The notes below the pieces were generated by a model, which worked only from the letters and a program-made list of their open reading frames with translations, did no database searches and had not been told where the DNA came from. DNA of 64,000 nt. Source: Sorex araneus (Eukaryota; Chordata; Mammalia; Eulipotyphla; Soricidae). A program made the position numbers and the translations under genes. Numbering within the stretch: the first letter of the stretch is position 1; the number at the start of each line of letters is the position of its first letter. This document shows positions 491 to 29,095 of this stretch, in pieces. The stretch spans positions 194,573,000 through 194,636,999 of the forward strand of contig NC_073306.1 in assembly GCF_027595985.1 (NCBI RefSeq), given 5' to 3'.

Positions 491-625
491 TATTCAATAT
501 ATCTGATCTGACAAAAGATCCACCATTATTATTTGGAAGTTCCCCAACATTCAGACCTGCTAAAAAAAAGCATCATTAGATAATTTGTTTTCTATTGCTG
601 ATATGAAGAGCATTTTGGATTTCTG

Positions 626-3303: not shown

Positions 3304-3373
3304 GGGTTAAAAGGACAAGATGAAGGCTCTTATTTTGACTGGACTCATCCTGACCTTTGCCACTTGCTTTCCG
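3304..3373 (+). other. Exon: short 5' UTR plus signal peptide of the giant mucin
   Basis: A pyrimidine-rich tract ends in the acceptor 'tctacttacag' at 3303. Sixteen bases later the ATG at 3320 opens an 18-codon frame, MKALILTGLILTFATCFP, which ends exactly at the donor CCG|GTAAG (3374). A short UTR plus signal peptide in one exon closed by a phase-0 intron is the standard second exon of casein/SCPP genes. The peptide has a Lys near the start and a hydrophobic core, like those of MUC7, PROL1, SMR3 and FDCSP. No first exon or promoter was identified upstream. Confidence 0.85.
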
Positions 3374-3681
3374 GTAAGACTTTATACAATTGAAAATTAG
3401 CACTACAGAAGTAACACTTTTATGAATATCATGATAATAAAACAAGGTTCAGGGTGACATTGTGTTTTTCTATTGTTAAATTAAGTATTTGCATTTTATG
3501 AAATTTCATTATTTAGAACATAACTTGTATGACTATATCTTTTGCACTTTTTGTTTGGGGGCCACACCCAACAATTCTCAAGGCCTAGCCCCAGTTCTGT
3601 GGTCAGGGATTTCCTCTAACAGTGCTCAAGACAGCCAAAGCAATATCCTGCTCTATTCTCTTGAGCTATGTCTCCTGACTA

Positions 3682-3716
<35 letters not shown>

Positions 3717-6700
3717 TACATATTATATATATATTATGTACTTTCTATAGTTAGCTTGGGTATCTTGAATTTTATTACCTATTTTTTCCCTTTATGTATT
3801 CTGTGGAGTTTTATTTTTTTAAATGCCTTGACCTTCTAAATTTCTATACAAAAATTCTTCATATCTATTCATAAACATATAGCTTTCAACATTTCAAAAT
3901 TACTATTAATATTCAATTAAGTTTGTTTCTTTGTATTTAATTAAACTATTCCAAAGATCCTTTCTTTTCTGGCATAACTATAATTTTCTTACACAATTCT
4001 TCCACAGCATTAAATGTCTCAGAAACAGTCATTATGAACCAGAGAGATTTGGGTTTTTGACATCTGAATTTCTGAGTTCAACATCAAATACGATTATGTA
4101 AATTCTATACTAGAGTTAAGTAATAATTCTTTTATTGGATTTTATATAACATCACAGTTGCCCGACAATGTATCTATTTTGCCAGGTTCTAAATGAATAA
4201 TTTTCTTTTAATTTCATAGGTTTAGTACAGATATATTTTAAAACTAATTATATTTTCCTAAGTGTATTTTATTGAATGGTCTATATTTTGTTGAATTTTC
4301 TTCATGAATACTCTGAGTGTCAAATGAAATACCCAAGCATTTTTTTCTAAGTATCCACTTGTTAGTTAACATTTACAGAATAATATAATAGTATTAATTT
4401 ATTTAATAATTAATTTAATAATATAAAATTAAATTAAATCAATTTATATCAAACTCAGAACTAACACACGTCCCATCTAAAAAAGCAAAGTAATTTGTAT
4501 CTAAAATAAAAATGAATATTCATATTTGATTTTAAAATTTGCTGCTGATTCCTTTTATTCTTCCTCCCTTCAGTTCAGTGAAAGTCAGCAGTCACAGAAC
4601 CAGGCAATAGGAAAGACAATCAAAAATCCATCAGTCCAAAGTTCTTCTGACAAAATATCAGAAAGCAGATCTCCACCCTGCCACGTCAATAGAATTCCTA
4701 AAGCTGTTTCTCATGCCTCTGCACCAGCAGTACAGACTAACAAAGCCGCCAGTAGATTGTCTTCAAATCCTAGGACTTCAACTGTAAAGAAAAAACCCGT
4801 GCAATCTTCACAAAAACAAAATCTGCAGGTGAAGCCTAAGAAAAAGACACTGATGGCCAATAAAGGGTTACCACCCTCCTCCTCTGGTGTCAAAAAGCAA
4901 AATGCTCCACGTGGGACAAGCAAATCTCTGAAGCCATCCATAAACAGTAAAAGGACAACTGAAAAAAACAAAGAGACTGCAGCAACATCAAAAACAGCTT
5001 CTACCATCAAGAAAACTGAAAATGCACCTGAAAAACCCACATCTGTCTCTGGCAAAAAGCAAAATTCGCCAACAGCAGTAGCAAAAAGAATTCCAGCTAC
5101 AAAGAAAAACCCTCAAAACTCTAAGAAACCCCTACCTCCACCTGTGAAGAAACAATCTACAGCCCTGGCAGCACCCAAAACAGCAGCCACCCGAAAGAGT
5201 TCACCCAGGAAGAAAACTGTTCAGACACAAAGAAAGAAGGAAGCAGTCACTCCGGTCAAAAAGTGGCCCGTTAAGGCAGCAGCTACTGCGACAGCTTCCA
5301 ATCCCACTAAATCTAGAAAGGCAACACCTGAAACTGCCAAGAAAAATCAGAACCCAGCAAAAGCAGTTGCAGCAGCCCCCCAAGAATGTTCACCCAAAGA
5401 GAAAACTGTACTTAACGAACACAAGAAAACAGTAGTCCCAGTCAAGAAGGGGCCTGTTAAGGCAACAAAAACAGCAGCAGTTTCCAAAGCCAAGAAGGAA
5501 AACCCAACTAGACCTAAGGCAATACCTGTAATTGGCAAGAAAACTCAGAACCAGGCAAAAGCTGTTGCCGCAGCCCCCGGGGAAAGTGCAACCAAAAAGA
5601 AAACTGTACAGAACCAAACGAAGAAATCAGTAACTCCGGTTGAAAAGGGACCAATTAGGGCAGCAGGAACCAGAGCAGCTTCCAAAGTTAAAACAGAAAC
5701 TCTTACAGGGTCTAAAAAGAGAGCACCTATGTCTTCCAATAAAAAGCTACATGAACCCAGAAAACTTGCATCAAAAAGCAAAAAGTCTATAGCCAAAACT
5801 AAAGTGCCAAAGATATCCAAGAAACCTCTTGCTGCACCTTCCAAGAAAGATGTGAATCATACTAAACCAGCACCAAAAACATCAGAAACTTCAAAGAAAC
5901 AAGCAAATCAATCTAAATGTGTCTTGTCTAAACCTAGAGGAAAACAGTCAAATCTAGCAAAAAGCAAGGCTCCAGCTCTCATAAACACTGGGAACCAAAA
6001 AGAAAATCTAAAAAAGTATAAACCAGCTGCCAAAACAGGGATCAGTGAGTCTAAACCTAGTCACAAAGGACACAAACATCCTATAGCTAAGAAGCAAATG
6101 CAGAAGAAATCTACATCGGGTGTAAGGACTGCAAAAGCAGTTCCTAATAGAAAACCTATAAAAGCATCACCAAAAGACATAAAAGGGCTTAAAGAAAAGC
6201 AGTCTAAATCCCCTGAAAGAAAAAGACAACCTCCATCATCATGCAGAACTGAAAAGCAATCTGAAACAAGAAGACCTAGAGTTTTCCCAAACAGGTTGAA
6301 ACAAAGAGGACCTAAAAACATTCGAGCTTCACCACATCCTCAACCCTCCATCCCATCTAAATCTCATAACTCTCGAAGACGACCACCAAAAAACAGTCCA
6401 CGACCACAACCAAATAAACCAAGTGGTCATCAGTTTTACCCTCCTCCACCAAGACCATGGCCTGTTCCCCCTCCTCCCCAGGCAAACCAAAATAATCCTT
6501 ACATACCACCCTGCCATAAGCCAAAACCTCCAACAAAGTCAACAGACATGAAAGATATCACAAATGATAACCCAACTGGTGAAGTCTCTACTGAAGATGA
6601 GATTTCTGACTCATCTACCAGCTGTACTCCTACATCCAACAGCAAAACATCAGTTGCCCCAATTAGTATGACTACTGAAGACACCACTACTGCTAAAGAT

Positions 6701-9700
6701 GCCACAACTACTATGAATAATGCCACAAATACCACAACTAGGCCTACATCCTCCTTAGCGGGCACCACTACTCAGTCTGTGAGTAAAACTGCTGCACCAA
6801 CCACTGTATCAAGCGGAGCTACTACTACAACTACAGCAGCCTCCACAACTACAGAGGAAAGTACTGCCACAACTATTGCTACTAAAACTTATGCTGCTGC
6901 TGCTACCACTACACCTACTGGTACCACAACCACCAAAACTAGCCCTATATCCTCCTCAGCAGGCACCACTACTCAGTCTGCGAGTACAACTGCTGCATCC
7001 ACAACTACAGTAACAGGGGGAGCAATTACTACAACTACAGTAGGCTCCACAACTCCAGAGGGTAGTACTAATAAAACTGTTGGTACCACAACTTCTGAGA
7101 CTACTACAACTACACCTACTGGTACCACAATCACAACTAGCCCAACATCCTCCTCAACAGGCACCACTACTCAATCTGTGAGTACAACTGCTGCACCCAC
7201 AACCACTATATCAGGGGGAGCTGCTACAACAACTGCAGCAGCCTCCACAACTCCAGAGGGTGGTACTACCACAATTGTTGCTATCAAAACTTCTGATGCT
7301 GCTACCACTATACCTATTGGTGCCATAACCACCACAATTAGCCCTACATCCTCCTCAGCAGGAAACAAAACTAACTCTGTGAGCATAGCTGCTGCACCAC
7401 CAACAACAGTGTCAGGGGGAGCTGCTACTACAACTGCAGCAGACTCCACAACTCCAGAGGATAGTATTACCACAACTTTTGCTATCAAAACTTCTGTGGC
7501 TGATACCACTACACCTACTGGTGCCACATCCACCACAATTAGCCCTACATCCTCCTCAGTAGGCATCACTACTCATTCTGTGAGTACAACAGCTGTACCT
7601 AGAACCACAGTGTCAGGGGGAGCTACTACTACAACTGAAGCACGCTCCACAACTCCAGAGGTTGGTACTACAACAACTGTTGCTACCACAACCTCTGTCA
7701 TTAGTACTACACCCCCTTCCGCTCCTACAACATCTAAGTCAAGTGGGACAAATACCACACCAAGTATTTCTCCTTTTACTACTGAACATAATACATTCAC
7801 AACCATGGGGAAAGCACCCACCCAGAACTCTGCTGTTACAACTGGAGTAGCTCAGGTCACCATGAAACCCAAAGATGACACAACTATTGAAACTCCTAAT
7901 ATAGTGGATGAAAAAAACCCTGATGAAGAAGATGCGACTACCAAAGACACCACTACTGCTAAAGATACGACAGCTGCTTTAGATGATGCCACAACTCTGA
8001 CAACTAACGCCACATCATCCTCAGCAGGCAGAACTACTCAGTCTGTGTGCAAAACTGCTCCACTGACAACCACAGTACCAAGGGAAGCAACTGCTTCAAC
8101 TACAGTAGCCTGCAAAACTCCAGAGGGTGGTAATACCACAACTGTTGCTAACACAACTTCTGATGCTGCTACCACTAAACCTACTACTGCCAAAACTACC
8201 ACAAATAGCCCTATATCCTCCTCAGCAGGCACCACTTCTCAGTCTGTGAGTACAAGTGCTGCACCCACAACCACCATATCAGGGGCAGCTGCTACCACAA
8301 GTACAGTAACCTCCACAAGTCCAGAGGATGATACTAACAAAACTGTTCCTACCACATTTTCTGCTGCTACCACTACACCTACTGGTGACACAACCACCAC
8401 AACTAGCTCGACATCCTCCTCAGCAGGCACCATTATTCAGCATGTGAGTAAAACTGCTGCACCCAAAACCACAGTATCAGGGGGAGCTGCTAGAACAACT
8501 GCAGCAGCCTCCACAACTCAAGAGAATGGTACTACCACGACTGTTCCTACCACAGATTCTGCTGCTACCACAATAACTGCTGGTGTCACAAACACCACAA
8601 CTAGGCCAACATCCTCCTCAACAGGCACAAGTACTGAGTCTCTGAGGAATACTGCTGCACCCACAACCACAGTATCAGGGGGAGCAGCTACTACAATTGC
8701 AGCAGCTTCCACCACTCCAGAAGATGATATTACCAAAACTGCTGCTACCACAACTTCTGCCACTGCAGCTACCATGACACCTACTGGTGCCACTAGCCAT
8801 ATATCCTCTACAGAAGGCACCACTAGTCAATCTGTGACACACACTGCTTCACTGACAACAGCCGTATCAAGGGACGCTATTACTACAGCTACAGCAGCCC
8901 CGACAACTCCAGAGGATGGTAATACCACAACTGTTGCTACCACAACTTCTGCTGCAGCTACCACTACACCTACTGGTGCCACTTTCATCACAACTAGCCC
9001 TACAACCTCCTTAGCTAGCACCACTAGTGCTTCTGTGAGTACAACTGCTCCACTGACAACCACAGTATCAGGAGTAGCAGCTACGGCAACTTCAAAAGAC
9101 TCCCCAACTGAACAGAATGTTACTACCACAACTGTTGGTACCACAACTTTTGCTCCTGCAACCTCTACACCTATTGGCGCCTCAACCATCACAACTAGCC
9201 CAATATTCTCCTCAACAGGCACCACTACTCAGTCTGTGAGTACAACTGCTGCACACACAACCACAGTATCAGCGAAACCTGCTACTACAATGGCAGCAGC
9301 CTCCCCAACTCCATATGATGCTATAACCACAAATGTTGCAACCACAACTTCTGCCACTGCTGCTACCACTACATCTACTGGTGCCACAACCACCACAAGT
9401 ATTCCAAAATCCTCTTCAGCAGGAATTACTACTCACTCTGTGAGTGCAACTGCTCCTCCGATAACCACAGTGTCAGGTGTAGCTAATACTACAACTGCAG
9501 CAGCCTCCACAACTCCAGAGGATGGTTCTACTACAAATTCAACGGCAGCAACCACTACACCTATTGGTTCCACATCCACCACAACAAACCCTAAATCCTC
9601 CTCAGCAGGCTACACTACTCATTCTGTAAGTACAACTGATGCACCTACAACCACAGTGTCAGGGGAAACTACTAGAACTGTAACAACCTCCACAATAACA

Positions 9701-12700
9701 GATGATGATACTACCACAAATGTTGCTACCACAACTTCTGCCACTGCTACTACCACTACACCTACTGGTGCCACAACCACGAGAACTATCCCCACATCGA
9801 CATCAGCAGGCACTGCTACTCAGTCAGTGAGTAAAACTGGTTCTCCAACAACCAAGGTGTCAGGAGGAGCTACTATTACAAGAGTACCAGCACCCACAAA
9901 TCCAAAAATTGATTCAACCACAACTGTTGCTACCACAACTTCTGCTGCTGCTACCACTACACACACTAGTCCCAGGACTAAAACATCTAGCCCTACATCC
10001 TCCTCAACAGTCACCACTACTCAATCTGTGAGTAGAACTGATGCACAGACAACCACTCTATTTAGGAGAACAACTACAACTAGAGCAGAAGTCTCCACAA
10101 CTCCAGATGATGGTACTACCACAAATTTTGTTACTAGAACTTCTGCTACTGCTACCAATACACCTACTAGTGCATCAACCACGACAACTAGCCCTATATC
10201 CTCCTCAGTTAGCACCACTATTCAGTCTGTGGGTATAACTGCTGCACCAGCAACTACAATATCAGGAGGAGCTACTTCCACAACTGTAGTAACCTCCACA
10301 ACTACAGAGGATGGTACTACCAAAAATCTTGCTACCACCGCTTCTGCCTCTGATATTACCACTACATCTACTGGTACCACAATCAACACAACTATCCCTA
10401 CATCCTCTTCAGCAGGAATTACTACTCAGTATGTGAGTACAACAGCTCCTCCGACAATCACAGTGTCAGGTGTAGCTACTACTACAACTGCAGCAGCCTC
10501 CACAACTTCAGAGGATGGTTCTACCACAACTGTTGCTACCACAACTTCTGCGGGTGCTGCCACTACACCTACTGGTTCCACATCCACCACAACTACCCCT
10601 AGATCCTTCTCAACAGACTACACTACTCATTCTGTAAGAAAAACTGCTGTGCCCACAACTACAGTATCACTGGAAGCTACTAGAACTGCAACAGCCTCCA
10701 CAACTCCAGCTGATGCTACTACCACAAATGTTTCTACCACAACTTCTGCTGCTTCTACCCCTACACCTACTAGTTCCACAACCACAACATCTAGCCCTAC
10801 ATCTTCCTCTGCAGTCACCACTACTCAGTCTGTGAGTAAAACGGCTGCACAAACAAACACAGTATTTCGAGGAACTGCTACTACAACTGCAGAAGTCTCC
10901 ACAGCTCCAGAGGATGGTACTACCACAAATTTTGCTGCCACTACTTCTTCTACTGCTACCGATACACCTACCCATGCCTCAACCAACACAACTAGCCCTA
11001 TATTCTCCTCAGCTGGCACCACTACTCAGCCTGTGAGTACAACTGTTTCACCAGCAACCACAGTATCAGGGACATCTACTACCGCAACTCTAGCAATCTC
11101 TAAAATTCCAGAGTATGGTACTACCACAAATATTGCTACCACAACATCTGCTTCTGCTGCTACCACTAAACCTAATGGTACCACAACCACCACAACTATC
11201 CCCACATTGACCTCCACTGGCACTAATACTCAGTCTGTGAGTAAACCTGATTCTACAACAAACGCAGTGTCAGGTGGAGCTACTATTACAACAGTACCAG
11301 CACCCACAACTCCAGAATTTGGTACTACCACAACTGTTTCTACCACAACTTCTGCTGCTGCTACCACTACACTTGCTAGTCCTATGACCACAGTATCTAG
11401 CCCTACGTCCTCCTCAGCAGTCAACACTGCTCAGTCTATAAGTACAACAGCTGCACAGACAACCACAGCTTTAGGGGGAACTATTACTACAACTGCAGAT
11501 GTCTCCACAACTCCAGAGGATAATAACACTACAAATTTCCCTAACACAATTTCTGCTACTGTTACCAATACACCGACTGGTGCCTCAACCACCACAGCAA
11601 GTCCTATATCCTCCTCAGTTGGCACCACTATTCAGTCTGTGGGTATAACTGCTGCACCCGCAACTACAATATCAGGAGGAGCTACTTCCACAACTGTAGT
11701 AACCTCCACAACTACAGAGGATGGTACTACCAAAAATCTTGCTACCACCGCTTCTGCCTCTGATATTACCACTACATCTACTGGTACCACAATCAACACA
11801 ACTATCCCTACATCCTCTTCAGCAGGAATTACTACTCAGTATGTGAGTACAACAGCTCCTCCGACAATCACAGTGTCAGGTGTAGCTACTACTACAACTG
11901 CAGGAGTCTCCACAACTTCAGAGGATGGTTCTACCACAACTGTTGCTACCACAACTTCTGCGGCTGCTTCCACTACACCTACTGGTTCCACATCCACCAC
12001 AACTACCCCTAGATCCTTCTCAACAGACTACACTACTCATTCTGTAAGAAAAACTGCTGTGCCCACAACTACAGTATCACTGGAAGCTGCTAGAACTGCA
12101 ACAGCCTCCACAACTGCAATTGATGCTACAACCACAAATGTTTCTACCACAACTTCTGCTGCTTCTACCCCTACACCTACTAGTCCCACAACCACAACAT
12201 CTAGCCCTACATCCTCCTCTGCAGTCACCACTACTCAGTCTGTGAGTAAAACGGCTGCACAAACAAACACAGTATTTCGAGGAACTGCTACTACAACTGC
12301 AGAAGTCTCCACAGCTCCAGAGGATGGTACTACCACAAATTTTGCTGCCACTACTTCTTCTACTGCTACCGATACACCTACCCATGCCTCAACCAACACA
12401 ACTAGCCCTATATTCTCCTCAGCTGGCACCACTACTCAGCCTGTGAGTACAACTGTTTCACCAGCAACCACAGTATCAGGGACATCTACTACCGCAACTC
12501 TAGCAATCTCTAAAACTCCAGAGTATGGTACTACCACAAATATTGCTACCACAACATCTGCTTCTGCTGCTACCACTAAACCTATTGGTACCACAACCAC
12601 CACAACTATCCCCACATTGACCTCCACTGGCACTACTACTCAGTCTGTGAGTAAACCTGATTCTACAACAAACGCAGTGTCAGGTGGAGCTACTATTACA

Positions 12701-15700
12701 ACAGTACCAGCACCCACAACTCCAGAATTTGGTACTACCACAACTGTTTCTACCACAACTTCTGCTGCTGCTACCACTACACTTGCTAGTCCTATGACCA
12801 CAGTATCTAGCCCTACGTCCTCCTCAGCAGTCAACACTGCTCAGTCTATAAGTACAACAGCTGCACAGACAACCACAGCTTTAGGGGGAACTATTACTAC
12901 AACTGCAGATGTCTCCACAACTCCAGAGGATAATAACACTACAAATTTCCCTAACACAATTTCTGCTACTGTTACCAATACACCGACTGGTGCCTCAACC
13001 ACCACAGCAAGTCCTATATCCTCCTCAGTTGGCACCACTATTCAGTCTGTGGGTATAACTGCTGCACCAGCAACTACAATATCAGGAGGAGCTACTTCCA
13101 CAACTGTAGTAACCTCCACAACTACAGAGGATGGTACTACCAAAAATCTTGCTACCACCGCTTCTGCCTCTGATATTACCACTACATCTACTGGTACCAC
13201 AATCAACACAGCTATCCCTACATCCTCTTCAGCAGGAATTACTACTCAGTATGTGAGTACAACAGCTCCTCCGACAATCACAGTGTCAGGTGTAGCTACT
13301 ACTACAAATGCAGCAGCCTCCACAACTTCAGAGGATGGTTCTACCACAACTGTTGCTACCACAACTTCTGCGGGTGCTGCCACTACACCTACTGGTTCCA
13401 CATCCACCACAACTACCCCTAGATCCTTCTCAACAGACTACACTACTCATTCTGTAAGAAAAACTGCTGTGCCCACAACTACAGTATCACTGGAAGCTGC
13501 TAGAACTGCAACAGCCTCCACAACTCCAATTGATGCTACTACCACAAATGTTTCTACCACAACTTCTGCTGCTTCTACCCCTACACCTACTAGTCCCACA
13601 ACCACAACATCTAGCCCTACATCCTCCTCTGCAGTCACCACTACTCAGTCTGTGAGTAAAACGGCTGCACAAACAAACACAGTATTTCGAGGAACTGCTA
13701 CTACAACTGCAGAAGTCTCCACAGCTCCAGAGGATGGTACTACCACAAATTTTGCTGCCACTATTTCTTCTACTGCTACCGATACACCTACCCATGCCTC
13801 AACCAACACAACTAGCCCTATATCCTTCTCAGCTGGCACCACTTCTCAGGCTGTGAATACAACTGTTTCACCAGCAACCACAGTATCAAGGGCATCTACT
13901 ACCGCAACTCTAGCAATCTCTAAAACTCCAGAGGATGGTACTACCACAAATATTGCTACCACAACTTCTGCGGCAAATAATACACTTACTGGTGCCTTAA
14001 CCACTACAACAAGCCTTATGTCCTCCTCAACTGGCAACACTACTCCATCTGTAAGAAGAACTGCTGCACCAGAAACCATAGAATCAGGGGCAGCAACTAC
14101 CACAACTGTAGCAATCTCTCAAACTTCAGAGGATGGCACTACCACAAATCTTGCTACCACCACTTCTGCTTCTGATGCTACTGCTATGTCTACTGATACC
14201 ACAATCACCACAACTATCCCTACATTCTCTTTAGCTAGCACCACTTCTCAGTCTGTGAGTACAACTGCTCCTTTGACAACCACAGTGTCAGGTACTACTA
14301 CAACTGCAACAGCCTCCACACCTTCAGAGGATGTTTCTAACACAACTGTTGCTACCACAACTTCTGCGGCTTCTACCACTACACCTACTAGTTCTATATC
14401 CACCACAACTACCCCTAGATCCTCCTCAGCAGACTACACTACTCATTCTGTAAGAACAACTGCTGTGCCCACAACTACAATATCACTGGAAGCTGCTAGA
14501 ACTGCAAAAGCCTCCATAACTCCAGCTGATGCTACTACTACAAATGTTTCTACCACAATTTCTGCTGCTGCTACCCCTACACCTACTAGTCCCACAACCA
14601 CAACATCTAGCCCTACATCCTCCTCAGCAGTCACCACTACTCAGTCTGTGAGTACAATTACTATAACAGCAACCACAGTATCAGGGGCAGCTACTACCAC
14701 AAATGTAGAAACCTTCACAACTCCAGAGGATGGTTCTACCACAACTGTTGGTACAACAACTTCTGCAGCTGCTACCGCTACACCTACTGGTTCCACATAT
14801 ACCACCAATAACCCTAATTCTTCCTCAACAAGCTACACTGCTCATTCTGTAAGTACAACTTATGTGCCTACAACCAGAGTATCAGGGGAAGCTAATAGAT
14901 CTGTAACAGCCTCCACAACTCCAGATGATGGTACTACCACAATTTTTGTTACCACAACTTCTGCCACTGTTGCTACCGCTACACCTACTGGTGCCACAAA
15001 CACCACAACTTTCCCCACATCGAACTCAGCAGGCAATACATCTCAGCCTGTGCATAAAACTGGTTCTCCAGCACCAAATGTGTCAGGTGGAGGTACTATT
15101 ACAACAGTACCAGCACCAACAAATTCAGAAATTGGTACTACCACAACTTTTGCTACCGCAACTTCTGCTGTTGCTACCACTACATCTATTAGTCCCACAA
15201 CCACAACATCTAGCCCTACATCCTCCTCAGCAATCACCACTATTCAGTCTGTGAGTACAACTGCTGTACAAGCAAAAACAATATCAGGGTCACCTACTAC
15301 CACAACTGTAGCAACTTTCAAAACTCCAGAGGATGGTTCTACCACAGCTGTTGCTACCACAAATTCTGCTGCTGCTACCACTACACCTACTGGTTCCACA
15401 TCTAATACAAATAACCCTAATTCCTCCTTAGCAGGATGCACTACTCATTCTGTAAGTACACCTGATGTGCCTACAACCACAGTATCAGGGGAAGCTATTC
15501 TATTTGTAACAGCCTCCACAACTCCTGATGATGCTACTATGACAATTGTTGCTACCACAACTACTGCCTCTTCTGCTACCACTACACCAACAGGTGCCAC
15601 AATCACCACAACTATCCCCACATCGAACTCAGGAGGCACTACTACTAAGCCTGTGTGTAAAACTGGTTCTCCAACAACCAAGATGTCAGGTGGAGGTACT

Positions 15701-18700
15701 ATTACAACAATACCTGCACCCACAAGTCCAGAAATTGGTACTACCACAACTGTTGCTACCACAACTTCCGCTGTTGCTACCACAACACCTACTAGTCCCA
15801 CAACTACAACATCTAGACCTACATCCTCCTCAGCAGCCACCACTACTCAGTCTGTGAGTACAACTGCTGCACAGACAACCACAATATTTTGGGGAAATGC
15901 TACTAAAACTGCTGAAGTCTCCACGACTCCAGATGATGGTACTACCATAAAGTTTGCTAACACACCTTCTTCTACTGCTACTGATACACCTACTGGTGCC
16001 TCAACCACCACAAGAGGCCCTATATCCTCCTCAGCTGGCACCACTACTCAGTCTGTGAATACAACTGCTGCATCGGCAACCACAGTATCAAGGGAAGCTA
16101 CCACCACAACTGCAGCAACCTCCACAACTCCAGAAGATGGTACTACCACAGATGTTGCTATGACAACATATGCCTCTGATGCTACTACTACATCTACTGG
16201 TAGCATAATCACCAAAACTACTACTACATACTCTTCAGCAGGAATTACTATTAAGTCTGTGAGTTCAGCAGCTCCTCTGACAACCACAATGTCAGGTGTA
16301 GCTACAACTACAACTGCAGCAGCCTCCACAATTTCAGAAGATGGTGCTACCACAACTATTCCTACCACAACTTCTGCGGCTGCTGCCACTATACCCACTG
16401 GTTCCAGATCCAACACAACTAACCCTAGATCCTCCTCAGCAGGCACCACTACTCAGTCTGTGAGCAAAACTGGTTCTCCAACAAACACAGTGTCAGGTGG
16501 AGCTACTATTAGAACAGTACCAGCACCCACAACTCCAGAACTTGGTACTACCACAACTGTTTCTACCACAACTTCTGCTAATGATACAACTACACCTACT
16601 AGTCACATAACCACAGTATCCAGCCCTATATCTTCCTCAGCAGTCAACACTTCTCAGTCTGTAAGTACAACAGCTGCACAGACAACCACAGATGTAGGAG
16701 GAACTATTACTACAACTGCAGATGTCTCCACAACTCGAGAGGATGGTACTACCATAAATTTTGCTACAACAATTTCTGCTACTGTTACCGATACACTGAC
16801 TGGTGCCTCAACCACCACAACAATACCTATAATCTCCTCAGTTGGCACCATCACTAAGTCTGTGAGTACAACTTCTGAAAAAGCAACTACAGTATCAGGA
16901 GCAGCTAGCACCACAACTTTAGCAACCTCCACAAATCCAGAGGATGGTACTACCACAAATGTTCCTTTGAGAACTACTGCCTCTGATGCTACCACTACAT
17001 CTATTGGTACCACAATCAACACAACTATCCCTACATCCTCTTCAGCAGGAATTACTACTCAGTATGTGAGTACAACAGCTCCTCCAACAATCACAGTGTC
17101 AGGTGTAGCTGCTACTACAACTGCAGCAGTCTCCACAAAGTCAGTGGATAATTCTACCACAACTGTTGCTACCTCAACTTCTGCGGCTGCTGCCACTACA
17201 CCTACTGGTTCCACATCCACCACAACTACCCCTAGATCCTCCTCTGCAGACTATACTACTCATTCTGTAAGAACAACTGCTGTGCCCACAACTACAGTAT
17301 CACTGGAAGCTGCTAGAACTGCAACAGCCTCCACAACTCCAGCTGATGCTACTACCACAAATGTTTCTACCACAACTTCTGCTGCTGCTACCCCTACACC
17401 TACTAGTCCCACAACAACAACATCTAGCCCTACATCCTCCTCAGCAGTCACCACTAATCAGTCTGTGAGTATAACTGCTGTACCAGCAACTACAGTATCA
17501 GGGGAAGGTACTACCAAAAATGTTGCAACCTTCACAACTCGAGATAATGATTCTACTACAACTGTTGCTGCCACAACTTCTGTGCCTGCTTTAACTACAC
17601 CTACTGGTTCCCCATCTATGACAAATAACCCTAATTCCTCCTCAGCAGGCTACACTACTCATTTGGTAAGTACACCTGATGCGCCTACAACCACAGCATC
17701 AGGGGAAGCTACTAGATCTGTAACAACGACAACAACTCTAAATGATGGTACTACCACAATTGTTGCTACCACAACTTCTGCCGCTGTTGTTAACACTACA
17801 TCTACTGGTGCCAAAACCACCACAACTATCCCTACATCAAACTCAGCAGGTACTACTAAAAGGCCTGTGCGTAAAACAGGTTCTGCAACAACCAAGCTGT
17901 CAGGTTCAGCTAGTACTAAAACAGTACCTGCAAGCACAATTCCAGAAATTGGTACTAACATAACTATTGCTACGACAACTTCTGCTGTTGCTACCAGAAC
18001 ACCTACAAGTCCCACAACTACAACATCTAGACCTACATCCTCCTCAGCAGTCACCACTACTCAGTCTGTGAGTACAACTGCTGCACAGACAACCACATTA
18101 TTTTGGGAAAATGCTACAAAAATTGCTGAAGTCTCCATGACTCCAGATGATGGTACTACCACAAAGTTTGCTAACACACCTTCTTCTACTGCTACTGATA
18201 CACCTACTGGTGCCTCAACCACCACAACAAGCCCTATATTCTCCTCAGCTGGCACCACTACTCAGTCTGTGAGTACAACTGCTGGACCGTCAACCACAGT
18301 ATCAGGAGCAGCTACTACCACAACTGTAGCAACCTCCACAACTCCAGAGGATGGTACTACCACAGATGTTGCTATGACAACATATGCCACTGATGCTACA
18401 ACTACATCTACTGGTAGCACAATCACCAAAACTACTACTACATACTCTTCAGCAGGAATTACTATTAAGTCTGTGAGTTCAGCAGCTCCTCTGACAACCA
18501 CAATGTCAGGTGTAGCTACTACTACAACTGCAACAGCCTCCACAATTTCAGAAGATGGTTCTACCACAGCTATTCCTACCACAACTTCTGCGGCTGCTGC
18601 CACTATACCCACTGGTTCCAGATCCACCACAACTAACCCTAGATCCTCCTCAGCAAGCACCACTACTCAGTCTGTGAGCAAAACTGGTTCTCCAACAAAC

Positions 18701-21700
18701 ACAGTGTCAGGTGGAGCTACTATTAGAACAGTACCAGCACCCACAACTCCAGAATTTGGTACTACCACAACTGTTTCTACCACAACTTCTGCTAATGCTA
18801 CCACTATACCTACTAGTCCCATAACCACAGTATCTAGCCCTACATCCTCCTCAGCAGTCAACACGGCTCAGTCTGTAAGTACAACGGCTAAACAGACAAC
18901 TAAAGATTTAGAGGAAACTACTACTACAACTGCAGGTGTCTCCACAACTCCAGAGTATGATAACACTACAAATTTTGCTACCACAATTTCTGTGACTGTT
19001 ACCGATACATCTACTGGTCCCTCAAACACCACAACAAGCCCTATATCCTCCTCAGTTGGCACCACCACTCAGTCTGTGAGTACAACCTCTGCAACAGCAA
19101 CTACATTATCAGGAGCAGCTATTACCACAACAATAGAAACCTCCACAAATCCAGAGGATGGTACTACCACAAATGTTGCTTTGAGAACTTCTGCCTCTGA
19201 TGCTACCACTACATCTACTGGTACCACAATCAACAAAACTATCCCTACATCCTCTTCAGCAGGAATTACTACTCAGTATGTGAGTACAACAGCTCCTCCG
19301 ACAATCACAGTGTCAGGTGTAGCTACTACTACAACTGCAGGAGTCTCCACAACTTCAGAGGATGGTTCTACCACAACTGTTGCTACCACAACTTCTGCGG
19401 CTGCTTCCACTACACCTACTGGTTCCACATCCACCACAACTACCCCTAGATCCTTCTCAACAGACTACACTACTCATTCTGTAAGAAAAACTGCTGTGCC
19501 CACAACTACAGTATCACTGGAAGCTGCTAGAACTGCAACAGTCTCCACAACTCCAATTGATGCTACTACCACAAATGTTTCTACCACAACTTCTGCTGCT
19601 TCTACCCCTACACCTACTAGTCCCACAACCACAACATCTAGCCCTACATCCTCCTCTGCAGTCACCACTACTCAGTCTGTGAGTAAAACTGCTGCACAAA
19701 CAAACACAGTATTTCGAGGAACTGCTACTACAACTGCAGAAGTCTCCACAGCTCCAGAGGATGGTACTACCACAAATTTTGCTGCCACTACTTCTTCTAC
19801 TGCTACCGATACACCTTCCCATGCCTCAACCAACACAACTAGCCCTATATTCTCCTCAGCTGGCACCACTACTCAGGCTGTGAGTACAACTGTTTCACCA
19901 GCAACCACAGTATCAGGGACATCTACTTCCGCAACTCTAGCAATCTCTAAAACTCCAGAGTATGGTACTACCACAAATATTGCTACCACAACATCTGCTT
20001 CTGCGGCTACCACTAAACCTATTGGTACCACAACCACCACAACTATCCCCACATTGACCTCCACTGGCACTACTACTCAGTCTGTGAGTAAACCTGATTC
20101 TACAACAAACACAATGTCAGGTGGAGCTACTATTACAACAGTACCAGCACCCACAACTCCAGAATTTGGTACTACCACAACTGTTTCTACCACAACTTCT
20201 GCTGCTGCTACCACTACACTTGCTAGTCCTATGACCACAGTATCTAGCCCTACGTCCTCCTCAGCAGTCAACACTGCTCAGTCTATAAGTACAACAGCTG
20301 CACAGACAACCACAGCTTTAGGGGGAACTATTACTACAACTGCAGATGTCTCCACAACTCCAGAGGATAATAACACTACAAATTTCCCTAACACAATTTC
20401 TGCTACTGTTACCAATACACCGACTGGTGCCTCAACCACCACAGCAAGTCCTATATCCTCCTCAGTTGGCACCACTATTCAGTCTGTGGGTATAACTGCT
20501 GCACCAGCAACTACAATATCAGGAGGAGCTACTTCCACAACTGTAGTAACCTCCACAACTACAGAGGATGGTACTACCAAAAATCTTGCTACCACCGCTT
20601 CTGCCTCTGATATTACCACTACATCTACTGGTACCACAATCAACACAGCTATCCCTACATCCTCTTCAGCAGGAATTACTACTCAGTATGTGAGTACAAC
20701 AGCTCCTCCGACAATCACAGTGTCAGGTGTAGCTACTACTACAAATGCAGCAGCCTCCACAACTTCAGAGGATGGTTCTACCACAACTGTTGCTACCACA
20801 ACTTCTGCGGGTGCTGCCACTACACCTACTGGTTCCACATCCACCACAACTACCCCTAGATCCTTCTCAACAGACTACACTACTCATTCTGTAAGAAAAA
20901 CTGCTGTGCCCACAACTACAGTATCACTGGAAGCTACTAGAACTGCAACAGCCTCCACAAGTCCGGCTGATGCTACTACCACAAATGTTTCTACCACAAC
21001 TACTGCTGCTGCTACCCCTACACCTACTAGTCCCACAACCACAACATCTAGCCCTACATCCTCCTCTGCAGTCACCACTACTCAGTCTGTGAGTAAAACT
21101 GCTGCACAAACAAACACAGTATTTCGAGGAACTGCTACTACAACTGCAGAAGTCTCCACAGCTCCAGAGGATGGTACTACCACAAATTTTGCTGCCACTA
21201 CTTCTTCTACTGCTACCGATACACCTACCCATGCCTCAACCAACACAACAAGCCCTATATCCTTCTCAGCTGGCACCACTTCTCAGGCTGTGAGTACAAC
21301 TGTTTCACCAGCAACCACAGTATCAAGGGCATCTACTACCGCAACTGTAGCAATCTCTAAAACTCCAGAGGATGGTACTACCACAAATATTGCTACCACA
21401 ACTTCTGCGGCTGCTGCTACCACTAAACCTACTGATGCCACAACCACCACAACTATCCCCACATTGACCTCAACAGGCACTACTACTCAGTCTGTGAGTA
21501 AACCTGGTTCTCCAATAAACACAGTGTCAGGTGGAGGTACTATTACATCAGTACCAGCACCCACAACTCCTGAATTTGGTACTATCACAACTTCTGCTAC
21601 CACAACTTCTGCTTCTGCTGCCACTATACCTACTAGTCCCATAAGCAAAACATCTACCCCTACATCCTCCTCAGCAGTCAACACTGCTCAGTCTGTAAGT

Positions 21701-24700
21701 ACAACGGCTGCACAGACAACCACAGATTTAGGGGGAACTACTACTACAACTACAGATGTCTCCACAATTCCAGATGATGGTACTACTACAAATTTTGCTA
21801 ACACAAATTCTACTACTTCTACCGATACAGCTACTGGTGCCTCCACTACAACAAGCGCTATATCCTCCTCAGTTGGCACCACTACTCAGTCTGTGAGTAC
21901 AACTTCTGCAATAGCAACTACAGTATCGGGAGCAGCTAGTACCACAACTATAGCAACCTCCACAAATCCAGAGGATGGTATTACCAAAAATCTTGCTATG
22001 ACAACTTCTTCCTCTGATGCTACCACTACATCTACTGGTACCACAATCAACACAACTATCCCTACAACCTCTGCAGCAGGAATTACTACTCAGTATGTGA
22101 GTACAACAGCTCCTCCGACAATCACAGTGTCAGGTGTAGCTACTACTACAACTGCAGGAGTCTCCACAACTTCAGAGGATGGTTCTACCACAACTGTTGC
22201 TACCACAACTTCTGCGGCTGCTTCCACTACACCTAATGGCTCCACATCCACCACAACTAACCCTAGATCCTCCTTAGCAGACTACAACACTCATTATGTA
22301 AGAAAAACTGCTGTGCCCAAAACTACAGTACCACTGGTAGCTGCTAGAACTGCAACAGCTTCCACAACTCCGGCTGATGCTACTATCACAAATGTTCCTA
22401 CCACAACTTCTGCTGCTGCTACCACTACACCTACTAGTCCCACAACCATAACATCTAGACCTACATCCTCCTCAGCAGTCACCACTACTCAGTCTGTGAG
22501 TACAACTGCTGCACATACAATCACATTATTTGGGGGAACTTCTACTACAACTGCAGAAGTCTCCACAGCTCCAGAGGATGGTACTACCACAAATTTTGCT
22601 ACCACAACTTCTTGGGCTGTTACCAATACACCTACTGTTTCCTCAACCACTACAACTAGCCCTATATCCTCCTCAGCTGGCACCACAGCTCATTCTGTGA
22701 GTACAACTGCTCTACCAGCAACCACAGTATCAGGGGCAGCTACTACCCCAACTGTAGCAACCTTCACAACTCCAGAGGATAGTACTACCACAAATGTTGC
22801 TACCACAACATCTGCCGCTGCTACTAACACTACACCTACTGGTGCCACAACCACCACAACTATTCCCACATCAACCTCTGCTGGCACTACTACTCAGTCT
22901 GTGAGTAAAACTGTTTCTCTGACAACCACAGGTGGAGCTACTATTACAACAGTACCAGCACCCACAACTCCAGTAATTGGTACTACCACAACTTTTGCTG
23001 CTGCTAGCACTACACCTACTGATCACACAAACACAGTATCTAGTCCTACATCATCCTCAGCAGGTGCCACAATTCAGTCTGTGAGTATAACTGCTGCACT
23101 GACAACCACTATATCAAGGGGACCTACTACTACAACTACATCAATCTCCACAAGTCCAGAGGATGGATCTACCACAACTGTTGCTGCCACAGCTTCTGTT
23201 TCTACCACTTCACCCACTGGTACCACAGTCACCTCAACTAGCCCTACATCCTCCTCAGAAGGCACCGCCACTCACCCTGTGAGTATAACTGTTGCACCCA
23301 CAACCACCATGTCAGGGGGAGCTTCTACTACAAATGCAGCATCCTCCACAACTCCTGAGGATGATACTACCGTAAATGGTACTACCGCAAATGTTGCTTC
23401 CACAACTTATGCCGCTGCTTCTACCACTACACCTAGTGATGCTAAAATTACCAAAACTATCTTTAGATCCTTGTCAGAAAACATTACTACTCACTCTGTC
23501 AGTACAACTGCTGCACCAACTACCACAGTATTAGGGACAGTTACTACTACAACTGCAGCAGCCTCCACAAATCCAGAGAATAATACTACAAAGTTTTCTA
23601 CCACAACTGCTGCTGCTGATGTTACCACTACATCTATTAGTGCCAAAACCAACACAACTGGCCCTACATCCTCTGCATCAGGCACTACTACACAGACTAT
23701 GAGTACAACTTCTGAACCGACAACCACAGTATTAGGGGGAACTACTACTACAACTACAGAAGCTTCCTTATATACAGCTACCACAAGTTCTGTGCCCTCT
23801 ACCACTACACCTACTAGTGCCACATCCACCACAACTAGCCCTACATCCTCCTCAACTGGCACCACTAGTCATTCTGTGAGTACAACTGTTGCACCAACAC
23901 CCACAAAGTCATGGGGAGCAAGTACTACAACTTCACCAGCCTCCACAATTCTAGAGGATGTAGCTACCACAACTATTACTACCACAACTTCTGCTGCCAC
24001 TACCACTACACCTACTGGTGGCACACCCACCACAAATGTCTCTACATCCTCCTCAGCAGACATCTCTACTCAGAATGTGAGTATAACTACTACACTGAAA
24101 ACCACAGAATCAGGGAGAGCTACTTCTACAACAGCAACAACATCCACAAATCCAGAGGATGGAACTAATACAACGGCTGCTACCACAACTTCTGCTGCTA
24201 CTACCACTACAACTATTGATGCCACAACACCCAAAACTAGCCCAAATTCCTCTTCAGCAAGCACTACTACTCAGTCTGTGAGTACAGCTCCTGCACCCAC
24301 AACCACAGTATCAGTGGGAGCTACTACTGTATCTACTGCAGCTTCCACAACTCCAGAGGATGGTACTACCACAACTGTTGCTAACACAACTTCTCCTGCT
24401 GCTAACTCTATACCTACTGGTGCCACAATCACCACAACTAGCCCAACATCCTTCTCAGCAAGCACCAGTATTCATTCTGTGAGTACAACTGTTACACCCA
24501 CAACCACAGTATCAGGAGGAGCTGCTACCACAACTGCAGCAGCCTCTGCAACTCCAGAGGATGGTACTACCACAACTGTTGCTAACACAACTTCTCCTGC
24601 TGCTAACTCTATACCTACTGGTGCCACAATCACCACAACTAGCCCAACATCTTTCTCAGCAGGCACCAGTATTCATTCTGTGAGTACAACTGTTACACCC

Positions 24701-27475
24701 ACAACCACAGTATCAGGAGGAGCTGCTATCACAACTGCAGCAGCCTCCACAACTCCAGAGAATGGTACTACCACAACTGTTGCTAACACAACTTCTCCTG
24801 CTACTGCGATCACTACACCTACTCGTGCCACAACCAACACAACTATCCCTATATATTCATCTGCAGGTACCACTATTCAGTCTGTGAGTTTAACTGCTGT
24901 ACCGACAACCATAGTATCAGAAGGAGCTACTACTACAACTTCAACAGACTCTACAACTCCAAAGGATGGTACTAACACAACTGTTGCTACCACTACTTTT
25001 GCTGCTACTGTTACCACTGCACCTACTAGTGCTGCAACCACCACAACTCGCTCTACATCCTCTGTATCAGGCACCACTCAACAGACTGTGAGTACAACTG
25101 CTGCAATGACAAGCTCAGTATCAGGGGGATCTAATACTACAACTGCAGCAACTTTCTCATATACAGAGGATGGAACTACCACAACTGTTGCTACCACAGC
25201 TTCTACTGCCACTACCACTTCACGTACTGGTGTCACAACTAGCCTAAATTCCTCTTCAGTAGGCACCACTACTCAGTCTCTGAGTATAGCTGCTGCTCCC
25301 ACAACCACAGTATCAGGGAGAGCTACTATTACAACTGCAGAAGCCTCCACAACTCCAGAGGATGATATTATAACAACTGTTGGTACCACAACTTCCAGTG
25401 CTGCTACTACCACTACTTCTACTCGTGCCACTACCACCACAACCAGCCCTACATCCTCCTCAACAGGCACCAATTATCACTCTGTGAGTACAGCTGCTGC
25501 ACCGACTACCACACTATTAGGAGGAGCTACTACTACAACTGCAGCTACCTCTACAACTCCAGAAGATGGTACTATTACAACTGTCACTGCCACAAATTCT
25601 GCTGCTGCTACCACTAAACGTACTGGTGCCACATCTACCAAAACTGGCCCTAGATCCTCCTCAGCAGACACTACTCCTCAGTCTGTGAGTACAAATTTGC
25701 CACTGACAACCACAGTGTCAGGTGAAAATATTACTACAAATCCAGTAGCCTACACAACTTCCGAGGATCGTACTACCACAACTGTTGCTATTACAACTTC
25801 TACTGATGCTACCACTGCACCTTCTGTTGCCACTACAACAACTACTCCTATATCCTTCTCAGTACGTTCCACAATTCAGTCTGTGAGTGCGACTGCTGCA
25901 TCAACAAGAACAGTATCAGAGGGAGCTACTACTACAACTGCAGCAGCCCCCACAACTCCAGAGGATGGTACTACCACAGCTGTTGCTACCACAACTTCTG
26001 CTGCTGCTACCTCTGCACCAATTGGTGCCACATCCACCACAACTAGTCCTACGTCCTCCTCAGCAGATATCACTACTCAGTCCATGAGTACAACTTCTGT
26101 ACCGGGGACCACAGTATCAGGGGGAACTACTACTACAACTGCAGGACCTTCCACAACTCCAGAGGATATTATTACCACAAGTGTTGGTACCACAACTTCT
26201 GCTGCTGTTACCACTACACCTTTTACTCCCACAACCACCACAACTAGCCCTACATCCTTCTCAGCAGGCACCACTTCTGAGTCTGGGAGTTCAACTGCTG
26301 CAACAACAACCACAGTATCAGGGGGAGCTATTACTACAACTGCAGCAGCCTCCACAACTCCAAAGGGTGATACTACCACAACTGTTACTAACCCAACTTC
26401 TGCTCCTCCTACCACTATACGTACTGGTACCACACCCACCACAACTAGCCCTACATCCTCCTCAGCAGGCAGCAATATTACAACTGCAGCAATCTCCACA
26501 ACTCCTAATGTTGGTACTACAACAACTGCTGCTACTACAACTTCTGTCACTGTTACTATACCTCCTTCAACTCCCACTACAACTACAGCCAGTGTTGCCA
26601 CCACCACACCAAGTATTTCTTCTTTTACTACTGAATCTGATACATTGACAACTGTGATTGAAGCCACCACTGAGAACTCTGCTGCTGCAACTATAGAAGC
26701 TCAGGTCACCATTGAACAAGAAGACACAACTACTGAAGCTGGGGATGAGAAAGAAGAAGATGAGAGTACTGAAGACATCACAACTCCGACTGAAGATGAT
26801 ACAGCTGCTGTTACAGCTATAGAAGATCCATTCATTATTGAAGAAAACAAGAATACTGAAGACACCACAACTCCTGCTGAAGATGCTACAACTGCTGTTA
26901 TAGTTATAGAAGATCCGTTCATTATTGAAGAAGAAGACACAACTACAGAAGCTGAGGATGAGGAAGATGAGAGTACTGAAGACACCATAACTCTTGATGA
27001 AGATACTACAGCTGGTGTTACAATTATAGAAACTCAGGTCATCATTGAAGAAGAAGACCCAACTGCTGAAGCTGAGGATGAGGAAGAAGAAGATGAGACA
27101 ACTGAAGACACCACAACTCCTGCTGAAGATGCTACAACTGTACCAGATAATGCTACAACACCTTCAACTGACTTCACAGCCACAGAAGCAGATTCCACCT
27201 CTGAAAGTACTGCTACAACCACTGCAGAAGACACTACAACTGCAGCTGCTACTTCAGCACCATCAGATACTACCACCTCATCACCTAAAGAAACATTCAT
27301 TGCTCCAGCCAGCACAACAGTAGCAACAGCTACTACAACTGAAGCCAGTACTATCCCAACTGCTCCTGGTTCATCTAATGATGCCATAACTGCAGGAGTC
27401 ACTACCACGACAGTAGCAGCAACTACAACAGCTTCAGCCAGTATTGTCAACATTGAATCTCAAAAAACTTTGTAA
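3320..27475 (+). CDS. Giant secreted mucin-like protein of the SCPP cluster (7,651 residues, two coding exons)
   Basis: The coding sequence joins 3320-3373 to 4574-27475, phase 0 at the junction. Predicted order by residue: signal peptide 1-18; Ser/Gln-rich start (FSESQQSQNQA); Lys-rich basic region about 60-610; Pro-rich segment about 610-675; Thr/Ser/Ala-rich tandem repeats about 715-7360; acidic Glu/Asp/Thr region about 7390-7545; short Thr/Ala-rich end. No transmembrane segment or GPI signal is seen, and cysteines are very few, so it is probably a secreted, non-gel-forming mucin. The repeats are ideal O-glycosylation targets, and some NXT sites occur. The start of the mature chain recalls MUC7, PROL1 and FDCSP. 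The frame stays open through about 97 repeat units whose length changes are multiples of three, which argues for selection on the protein. Function is not known; salivary, milk or epithelial mucus is an inference. The internal ATG at 4526 lies in the intron and was not used as start. Confidence 0.85.
3551..3675 (-). mobile_element. Divergent SINE fragment
   Basis: The sequence 'ggggccacacccaacaattctcaagg...' follows the reversed SINE consensus (gggtcacaccc...cactcagg...), with many changes. It is an old copy lying in the first identified intron of the mucin gene. Confidence 0.5.
3680..3736. repeat. (TA)n/(CA)n microsatellite
   Basis: About 12 TA pairs are followed by CA and TA-rich dinucleotides. 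It is a simple repeat within the intron. Confidence 0.85.
4700..6340 (+). other. Lys-rich basic region of the mucin
   Basis: Roughly residues 60-610 are dominated by Lys, Ala, Pro, Ser and Thr, with strings such as VKPKKKT and KKNPQNSKKPLPPPVKK, giving a strong positive charge. The composition resembles histone H1 tails but contains no H1 globular domain. A weak tandem repeat of about 64-66 residues occurs three times (near 5210, 5401 and 5600), with the shared pieces KKTV, VTPVKKGPVKA and AKAVAAAP. Such a charged stretch could bind acidic surfaces, mineral, or the acidic tail of the same protein; this is inference. Confidence 0.75.
6340..6540 (+). other. Pro-rich segment of the mucin
   Basis: About 67 residues rich in Pro, His, Arg and Asn include PPPPRPWPVPPPPQ and PPCHKPKPPTK. 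It lies between the basic region and the Thr-rich repeats. The order basic then Pro-rich then Thr repeats is also that of MUC7, whose Pro-rich segment likewise has isolated Cys and KPP motifs. The similarity may reflect shared descent or only composition. Confidence 0.65.
7755..8010 (+). other. Internal copy of the C-terminal acidic module
   Basis: The translation TTPSISPFTTEHNTFTTM is followed by an acidic run with IVDEKNPDEEDATTKDTTTA, and this interrupts the repeats. It parallels the protein's end, where TTPSISSFTTESDTLTTV precedes the acidic tail. Sequence just after it (TTAKD..., then NATSSSAGRTTQSVCKTAP) parallels the entry into the first repeat near 6680-6790. It therefore looks like a fossil of an older, shorter gene end. 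Confidence 0.7.
10231..13960 (+). repeat. Higher-order repeat, 1,410-bp unit of seven 67-residue repeats (2.6 copies)
   Basis: The segment beginning 'ggtataactgctgcacc' at 10231 recurs at 11641 and about 13051, exactly 1,410 bp apart each time, and the copies are almost identical base for base. A further block at about 19240-21400 matches the same unit, displaced by 7,437 bp from the second copy. This points to recent unequal crossing-over in blocks of seven units. Confidence 0.85.
15445..19870 (+). repeat. Higher-order repeat, 2,214-bp unit of eleven repeats (two copies)
   Basis: Corresponding points recur with a constant offset of 2,214 bp (for example 15847 and 18061, 16048 and 18262, 16654 and 18868, 17260 and 19474). 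The copies are more diverged than those of the 1,410-bp family, so this block duplication is probably older. Confidence 0.75.
26700..27150 (+). other. Acidic C-terminal region of the mucin
   Basis: Glu/Asp-rich sequence with Thr has about four imperfect copies of a motif of roughly 30-40 residues: IEDPFIIEE or IETQVIIEEED, then TTTEAEDEEEEDE, then TEDTTTPAEDATT. There are several potential casein-kinase-type acidic Ser/Thr sites, but no typical SCPP SXE cluster stands out. It is the opposite in charge to the Lys-rich N-terminus. Confidence 0.75.
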
Positions 27476-27719: not shown

Positions 27720-27860
27720 CAGGTCAGAGAGTCTGGTAGGTAAGGCTCCTGCCTTGCACAAGCTTTGACAGCATTTATGGTCCCCAGAAGACTATATTGA
27801 GTAATCACTGAGCACAGAGACAGGAGTAATCCCTGATCGCATCAAGATGTGGACAAAAAA
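27720..27860 (+). mobile_element. Divergent SINE fragment
   Basis: Landmarks 'ggtaaggctcctgccttgcac', 'tatggtcccc' and 'actgagcacagagacaggagtaatccctg' follow the + strand SINE consensus with many substitutions. Confidence 0.6.
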
Positions 27861-28016
27861 CAAACCAAATAAATGAATTAAATGAATAAAAACATCTTAA
27901 TTCTTAAGAAAATACACTGAAATCTTAGGATTAAAGAATAGCAGTTCCATAAAGCAATTAATTAAAATCAAAATTGCTCTCTATTACACTGAAATTCATA
28001 TAAATATATATTTTAT

Positions 28017-28187
28017 TTTTTTTCCTTTTTGGGTCACACCTGGTGATGCACAGGGGTCACTCCTGGCTCTGCACTCAGGAATTACCCCTGGCACTGCTCA
28101 GGGGACCATATGGGATGCTGGGAATCGAACCCAGGTCAGCCGCATACAAGACAAACGCCCTACCTGCTGTGCTATCACTCCAGCCCT
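28017..28187 (-). mobile_element. Shrew-type SINE, standard variant
   Basis: Bottom-strand copy running from 'agggctggagtgatagcacagcaggtag' to 'tgggtgtgacccaaaaagg', with a T-rich (tail) start on the + strand. It is well preserved, so it is relatively young. Confidence 0.85.
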
Positions 28188-28912
28188 ACATATATACTTT
28201 AAAGCAAAAGTTCTTGAATATTATGAATAACCTGATTCATATTCTTGAATTTTCATAACTATAACTCAGATAGTACTTCACAATGAAAATTAACCAAATA
28301 TTACAAACATAGCAATGAGTACGACAATCAAGAAATTTTAAGCAGTTATACTTTACACAGCTATACAAAAGTGACACCTCAGTTAAATTCAAATGGAAAT
28401 GAGAATGATCCTACTATTATTGAAGAAAATGTATGAGGAAGATTTAGCCAACAAAATTAATTACAATAAAAAATTTTCTAGATTATAAAACCATGTCAAA
28501 GATAGAACGAGCATACCTAAGATTAATTTGGAAAAAGGAGTTGATGAAATATACATCAAATTTTAAATGGGGTTTTAAAACTGATGAAAGCATCGTAGTA
28601 GAAGTAAAAAAAGATGAAATAAACCTTAAATATATTAATTGTGTCTTACTCTAAGCAAAATATCTGACTAGATTTATTTTACTATAAAATATAATTATGA
28701 ACTATCAGGTGTGGTGGTGGGGTTTAGGGACCAACATGTAGACAATTATAGAATTAATTAGATAATAATTAATAATAATAATTAATTAATTATAGAATTA
28801 ATTCCATATAAGTGTTAAATAGCAAGTTTAAAATAAGTAGGTAATGTCTAAGGCAATTTAATATTAAAAATTCATTAATTGTATATCAATTATGTGTTTC
28901 TCTTTGTTTTAG

Positions 28913-29095
28913 GTTTCATTCCCTGAAGTAATAAACTTCTTGCCTCAACTATTTCCAATGTGCTCAAGAATTAATTGCCTTCACATTCCAAAAATTTAGA
29001 CCACCCTAGAAATTCTGCTTCTTTCTTTCATCTTAGATGTGTTCATTTTAACTTCTTCAGCTTTCATTTAATAAACTCTTTTCAAACTCACTTGT
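28913..29095 (+). other. Terminal 3' UTR exon of the giant mucin
   Basis: It follows a strong acceptor ('tttgttttag|GTTTCATT') and contains AATAAA at 29070-29075. It has no reading frame of note. A stand-alone 3' UTR exon is the family pattern and is also seen here in CSN3. Its presence makes the giant gene a self-contained transcription unit. Confidence 0.7.
29070..29075 (+). terminator. Poly(A) signal of the giant mucin gene
   Basis: AATAAA is followed by a GT-rich stretch ('cttgtttttgtatg') at about 29093-29106, as expected for cleavage near 29090-29095. Confidence 0.7.

Follow-up and report, generated by a model that had tools for sequence, protein, structure and literature searches.

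In the genome of Sorex araneus, a stretch of 64,000 nucleotides (C5:194573000-194636999, where C5 is contig NC_073306.1; hereafter the window) carries an open coding exon of 22.9 kb filled with repeats. The question it raises is whether so long an exon belongs to a functional gene and, if so, what kind of protein the gene would make. The original prediction, made from the letters of the window, was a giant secreted mucin of the casein/SCPP cluster. Our follow-up, in which genome-wide searches covered 2.4 Gb in 65 contigs, leads us to read this gene, denoted A, as a functional secreted mucin of the non-gel-forming kind, probably born in the SCPP cluster from a Lys-rich secreted protein; we assign this reading a probability of about 0.75.

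Gene A lies on the forward strand. Its signal-peptide exon (3304-3373) is preceded by CTACTTACAG; translation starts at the ATG at 3320 and covers 18 codons (MKALILTGLILTFATCFP), and the exon ends in CCG before a phase-0 donor, GTAAGA. Intron 1 (3374-4573) runs from this GTAAGA to CCCTTCAG, which stands directly 5' of a single large coding exon (4574-27478; 22,905 bp). There 7,633 codons are open before a TAA at 27473-27475, and the donor of the exon (CAG, then GTAAAT) sits three bases past the stop codon. A 3' noncoding exon at 28913-29095, its 3' end as placed by the original prediction, contains AATAAA at 29070. A short signal exon with a phase-0 donor together with a noncoding last exon is the layout of SCPP secretory genes. 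The product would be 7,651 aa long, with a computed unglycosylated mass of ~752 kDa. The predicted signal exon, single open exon and last exon with its AATAAA were all borne out, and as a sequence the gene model is confirmed as intact and real.

The large exon is built around a repeat array (6737-26659, forward strand) of 98 degenerate units of ~67 codons, with nested duplications of 7-, 11-, 14- and 37-unit blocks. The set of units was taken from a wrap-around alignment, in which 16 of 114 segments were excluded for identity below 50% or fewer than 55 columns (10 lay in the head or its junction and 5 in the tail, and 1 was an acidic composite within the array); Tandem Repeats Finder (TRF) gave 4.9 + 92.2 copies of a ~201-bp unit. 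The predicted run of about 97 units in frame held as to the frame, and the count by alignment is 98. Pairwise nucleotide identity among the units averages 0.745, with a minimum of 0.49, and their Ser+Thr content averages 51.8%, ranging from 39 to 64% across all 98. Blocks within units 16-79 recur at offsets of 7, 11, 14 and 37 units. Many pairs at offsets 7, 14 and 37 are 98-100% identical, and 11-unit pairs reach 98%. As judged from these near-identical offset blocks, the array is the product of repeated block duplication, partly recent, with older, degenerate flanks. The same 98-100% identical blocks could be expected had the assembly inflated or misassembled a shorter true array. We consider this very unlikely, as most units differ from one another, the frame is clean, and N is absent from the whole 64-kb window; uncertainty from the assembly would touch at most the exact copy number of the units.

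A paralogue of gene A provides an independent comparison. The first 30 bases of the A signal reading frame are found at one other place in the genome, C5:194672832, and when the genome was searched with 699 aa from A (head and junction), A and this second gene were the only ones found among the 64 of 106 candidates that were scored. The second gene, denoted C, runs on the forward strand from C5:194672832 to a 3' exon at ~194682156, 96 kb downstream of A, and is intact with 2,056 aa. It matches A in splice sites, head, the C-terminal NIESQKTL, the arrangement of stop codon and donor, and the 3' exon; the signal exons are identical at 68 of 70 bases, and the intron at 3374-4573 is 88-90% identical over the three parts that aligned. 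The prediction of a secreted-mucin gene in this cluster is supported, these conserved junctions backing the gene model, with the correction that A does not stand alone: the shorter intact copy and related genes lie within ~110 kb. Compared with A, C has few units of the 67-aa type and instead has amplified acidic composite units and an array rich in Gly-Ala-Thr-Thr-Thr. The two genes thereby form a paired natural experiment, with a common origin and different arrays grown.

Blocks on both sides of A and C recur at an offset of ~93-99 kb with 75-94% identity (matches of at least 250 bp). Kappa-casein (CSN3) lies on the forward strand at 52049-55552, with a signal exon at 52049-52102 and a main-exon match at ~55103-55552 (PF00997, E=1.7e-44 and 1.9e-47). 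A second, near-identical kappa-casein signal exon is found within the duplicated segment at -43411 to -43358 (numbered, like all positions outside the window given without a contig, in the frame of the window). Because of the offset blocks, this second signal exon and a copy, B', of the neighbouring gene B, we conclude that a segment of ~95 kb carrying kappa-casein, B and the ancestor of A and C is duplicated in tandem. The main exon of the second kappa-casein has no counterpart of at least 250 bp, and there is a single kappa-casein match genome-wide; on this pattern, the extra kappa-casein lost its main exon after the duplication, and A, C, B and B' remained open. A haplotypic false duplication of A and C is ruled out by noncoding divergence of 4-12% and by the ~93-99-kb offset over many blocks. 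In one block (-1093 to -157 against 98146-99087) the A and C copies share 93.9% identity, rising to 96.4% over -1093 to -400, which is higher than in the surroundings; from a reading of the DNA, the block resembles an antisense zinc-finger gene fragment.

The A/C pair and the units of the array allowed selection on the reading frame to be separated from selection on residues. Seven noncoding A/C blocks could be aligned, of nine regions defined, and these are 88-96% identical. Across their 5,993 aligned sites we counted 61 indels shorter than 30 bp, of which 53 are not multiples of three (8 are). At this rate the head should have taken 17.6 frame-shifting indels; there A and C are 91.1% identical over 1,987 sites. 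The gaps observed in the head keep the frame: within a 17-bp stretch, gaps of 1, 3 and 2 bp add up to two codons, gaps of 97, 64 and 10 bp add up to 171 bp or 57 codons, and the rest are multiples of three (the last gap in the alignment list is the alignment end). The probability of such frame retention is ~4e-6 with two frame-shifting short gaps, or ~2.5e-5 if the 10-bp piece is counted as a third. No stop codon is found in the head of A or C, and ~6.5 are predicted (192 differences x 3.4%). Similarly, the tree of the 98 units has a length of 9.97 substitutions per site, and with 1.1% of changes being nonsense 22.5 nonsense changes are expected and none is observed. In neutral simulations along the unit tree, each of 12 runs proposed 17-32 stops, and each of 6 runs in which CpG sites mutated at a ten-fold rate proposed 30-44; gene conversion between units violates the tree model, making these expected counts approximate. 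A chance open frame at 4574-27478 is ruled out by the 22.5 expected and zero observed nonsense changes and by the next-longest stop-to-stop frame across the array, which is 207 aa (among frames of at least 200 aa). With no nonsense change against 17-44 simulated, and head frameshifts far below 17.6, frame retention and stop avoidance in A look like strong selection.

The residues behave differently. In the units the observed omega is 1.32 under GY+FQ, 1.43 under GY+F1X4, 2.18 under GY+F3X4, 1.31 under MG+F1X4, 2.29 under GY+F and 1.59 under MG+F3X4. Over 18 neutral runs, omega was 0.94-1.16 under GY+FQ, 1.06-1.26 under GY+F1X4, 1.56-1.99 under GY+F3X4 and 0.94-1.14 under MG+F1X4, so that under these four models the observed value exceeds all 18 simulations. 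Residues of the units show no sign of constraint, with perhaps slightly more replacement change than neutrality predicts. Positive selection among units (omega 1.3-2.3 in six models) is not claimed, because gene conversion and context effects remain possible; F3X4 alone inflates neutral omega to 1.56-1.99. The ratio of nonsynonymous to synonymous divergence (dN/dS) between B' and B is 0.90 (0.61-1.55) over the first 290 codons. Together, the data fit purifying selection against truncation, with the sequence free and the composition renewed by block duplication. The proposal that the protein is under selection is upheld for the open frame, from which stops and frameshifts are purged, but selection is not detectable on the amino-acid sequence, with units somewhat above neutral. 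With these numbers A documents a case of purged nonsense and frameshift changes alongside free missense change, the look expected of 'selection on length and composition, not sequence'.

Several observations weigh against a functional mucin. Purifying selection on the amino acids of the head is not detectable: over 662 codons of A and C, dS is 0.092, dN 0.107 and dN/dS 1.16, with a bootstrap range of 0.86-1.61. In the Thr columns of the units (~3,000 cells) Thr occurs 2,199 times, and is replaced mainly by Ile (181), Asn (150), Ser (140) and Ala (120); Thr therefore decays freely, which lends no support to strict selection at single O-glycosylation sites. Pro makes up only 6.2% of the array, low for a classical domain rich in proline, threonine and serine (PTS). 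Scans for a 5' noncoding exon and a TATA promoter gave no convincing candidate common to A and C. Just upstream of the A signal exon an insertion of ~2.9 kb (271-3206, forward strand) with GGTGCAAAA at both flanks, which contains tandem repeats of ~305 bp and ~292 bp, is absent from C and could alter the expression of A. Finally, a very recent loss of function would give an identical picture.

This last point leads to the possibility that A maintained its frame up to the recent past and now evolves neutrally, the work being done by C or another mucin. Such a gene would show dN/dS near 1 or higher, as do the head and the units, could have taken up the A-only insertion in its 5' region, and would have company in its neighbour D, whose 3' part is already broken by stops and frame changes. 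We nevertheless find it improbable that A is a recently dead gene. The junctions, frame and poly(A) signal of A are intact despite the 4-12% divergence of the seven noncoding blocks, and the units carry no nonsense change where 17-44 were simulated. Moreover, disordered mucins commonly tolerate missense change, and this counts against loss of function as its explanation here.

We then considered the composition of the A protein, whose ends are oppositely charged. The Lys-rich head (4574-6433, forward strand; 620 aa) has a net charge of +128, an isoelectric point of 11.3, 24.8% Lys+Arg and 11.1% Pro. It is followed by a short Pro-rich patch (6434-6694, forward strand; 87 aa, 21.8% Pro). The original prediction had pointed to small Pro-rich proteins as the source of MUC7 and rodent mucins in this cluster; in A the head is mainly Lys-rich, and the Pro-rich patch is short. 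The array is mildly acidic before glycosylation, with a net charge of -97 over 6,621 aa. An acidic tail segment (26678-27157, forward strand; 160 aa) has 38% Asp+Glu and a net charge of -59. The pairing of a strongly cationic head with an acidic tail segment is unusual. The whole protein contains 11 cysteines in 7,651 aa and no membrane-type hydrophobic stretch, the best 19-residue hydropathy outside the signal being 1.1. Pfam searches of both ends (4574-7000 and 26000-27472) gave no matches.

The charge of the head allows another reading, in which A is functional and secreted but selection has favoured its cationic head, for an antimicrobial or mineral-binding role, with the array as a tolerated spacer. 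Consistent with this, the heads of A and C carry net charges of +128 and +204, the latter over 720 aa, and the heads of B and B' are Lys-rich too. However, the head is conserved no better than noncoding DNA, A and C have widely different head charges, and the array has kept its frame across 19.9 kb, so we hold this reading to be unlikely.

If A is a functional mucin, a Thr/Ser-rich unit would have been amplified in frame inside the single large exon of a Lys-rich secreted protein. The signal peptide predicts secretion. The ~3,400 Ser and Thr residues of the array are predicted to be densely O-glycosylated, which, as in mucins generally, would stiffen the chain into a very long bottle-brush. 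Because there are almost no cysteines, A would not form disulphide gels, and any assembly would be ionic. The cationic head probably anchors A to anionic partners, which could be glycans bearing sialic acid or sulphate, the surfaces of microbes, mineral or the acidic tail of A itself. The putative role is that of a lubricating, microbe-binding coat, with saliva or another oral-gland secretion as the first guess for its tissue and milk as the second. Length and Ser/Thr content would be the selected traits, refreshed by unequal exchange, and single residues would drift. A bolder version, which we regard as a long shot, is a giant, nearly Cys-free mucin in which ionic contacts between cationic head and acidic tail link the molecules into polymers, with the two paralogues tuning it through diverging head charge and separately amplified arrays and with selection acting only on frame, length and composition. 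If true, ionic head-to-tail polymerisation would be a new assembly principle for mucus, replacing disulphides.

How does A compare with known mucins? With Ser/Thr-rich tandem repeats in one exon and no transmembrane stretch found, it has the sequence features of a secreted orphan mucin. A gel-forming mucin (MUC2/5AC/5B) is ruled out by the 11 cysteines and by the lack of Pfam matches in the scanned ends, and a tethered mucin by the hydropathy of the whole protein together with the same Pfam result. Lineage-specific mucins have reportedly arisen in the SCPP locus through the gain of exonic repeats, in work ascribed to Pajic et al. 2022. Like A, these are said to combine a signal exon with one Thr/Ser-rich repeat exon, to lack gel-forming domains and to lie in the same cluster; A differs from them in its Lys-rich head, 7,651 aa, 98 units, charge-polarised ends and close paralogue with a different array. 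MUC7, of ~0.4 thousand aa, lies past SMR3/OPRPN toward AMTN. Gene A is ruled out as its orthologue by its place between ODAM and CSN3 and by its 67-codon unit against a 23-aa repeat.

MUC7 is, like A, a secreted SCPP-cluster mucin with subexonic in-frame Ser/Thr-rich repeats, of 23 aa, whose composition is kept as copy number changes, and in shrews MUC7 showed no PTS repeats (PMC4997351). The birth of mucins from secreted proteins through exonic repeat gain is established (PMC12776774). The original prediction also held that the exon rivals or exceeds the largest coding exon known. Such a size record is ruled out by human MUC4, with alleles up to 27,843 bp, and MUC12, with proteins up to 23,080 aa and the largest exon in the human genome, as given in a medRxiv study (PMC13345508). 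The same study describes MUC16 as near-fixed in length and the most degenerate array among those studied, a partial parallel to the degenerate array of A; MUC16, MUC4 and MUC12 share giant repeat exons with A but are membrane-tethered (PMC13345508), whereas A has no membrane-type stretch. Gene A would be neither a size record nor a new type, but a very large and oddly charged case of the mucin birth known from the SCPP cluster, extending it to very large size and to a Lys-rich precursor. Titles and abstract openings from searches of a partial literature collection contained no description of A, its Lys-rich head or the A/C pair, which is weak evidence of novelty.

The surrounding genes place A in its cluster. 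The order, all on the forward strand, is ODAM (C5:194.496-.501 Mb, upstream of A), A, CSN3, B, C, D, CABS1 (downstream of D; PF15367, E=1.3e-104), Thr-/Pro-rich frames and AMBN (C5:194.946-.953 Mb) at the far end. Because ODAM, CSN3, CABS1 and AMBN follow in this order on one strand, the locus is, on gene order, the SCPP cluster of casein, enamel and saliva genes. B' (-29243 to ~-26147) and B (64747-68974, forward strand) have frames of 505 aa and 770 aa, respectively, a signal exon encoding MKNLILCMI(I/V)LNLSAFFL, a Lys-rich head, and Thr-rich and acidic repeats. D is a second giant single-exon gene on the forward strand (119477-119530 + 120538-140073; L008-L010, with its tail into L011). Signal exons were located by a heuristic scan, which missed that of D (MKISFLTATILNFLLNFP); it was recognised by eye. 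The D exon has 6,512 open codons, is Ser/Asn-rich with ~0% Cys, and contains repeats of ~85/90 aa (a 175-aa composite). Beyond its stop at 140074 related sequence continues to ~146 kb, interrupted by stops and frame changes, on which evidence D is truncated or dying.

Among the neighbouring frames, those tentatively labelled PRP, SMR3-like and T-rich from their composition had no Pfam match, and two 10-kb pieces toward AMBN contained no MUC7-like frame of at least 90 aa. A Thr-rich frame of 247 aa between CABS1 and the Pro-rich genes (L017:2451-3191), likewise with no Pfam match, has a candidate signal exon (MKSLILIAVIFTATACFS) ~5.8 kb upstream and is perhaps another small mucin.

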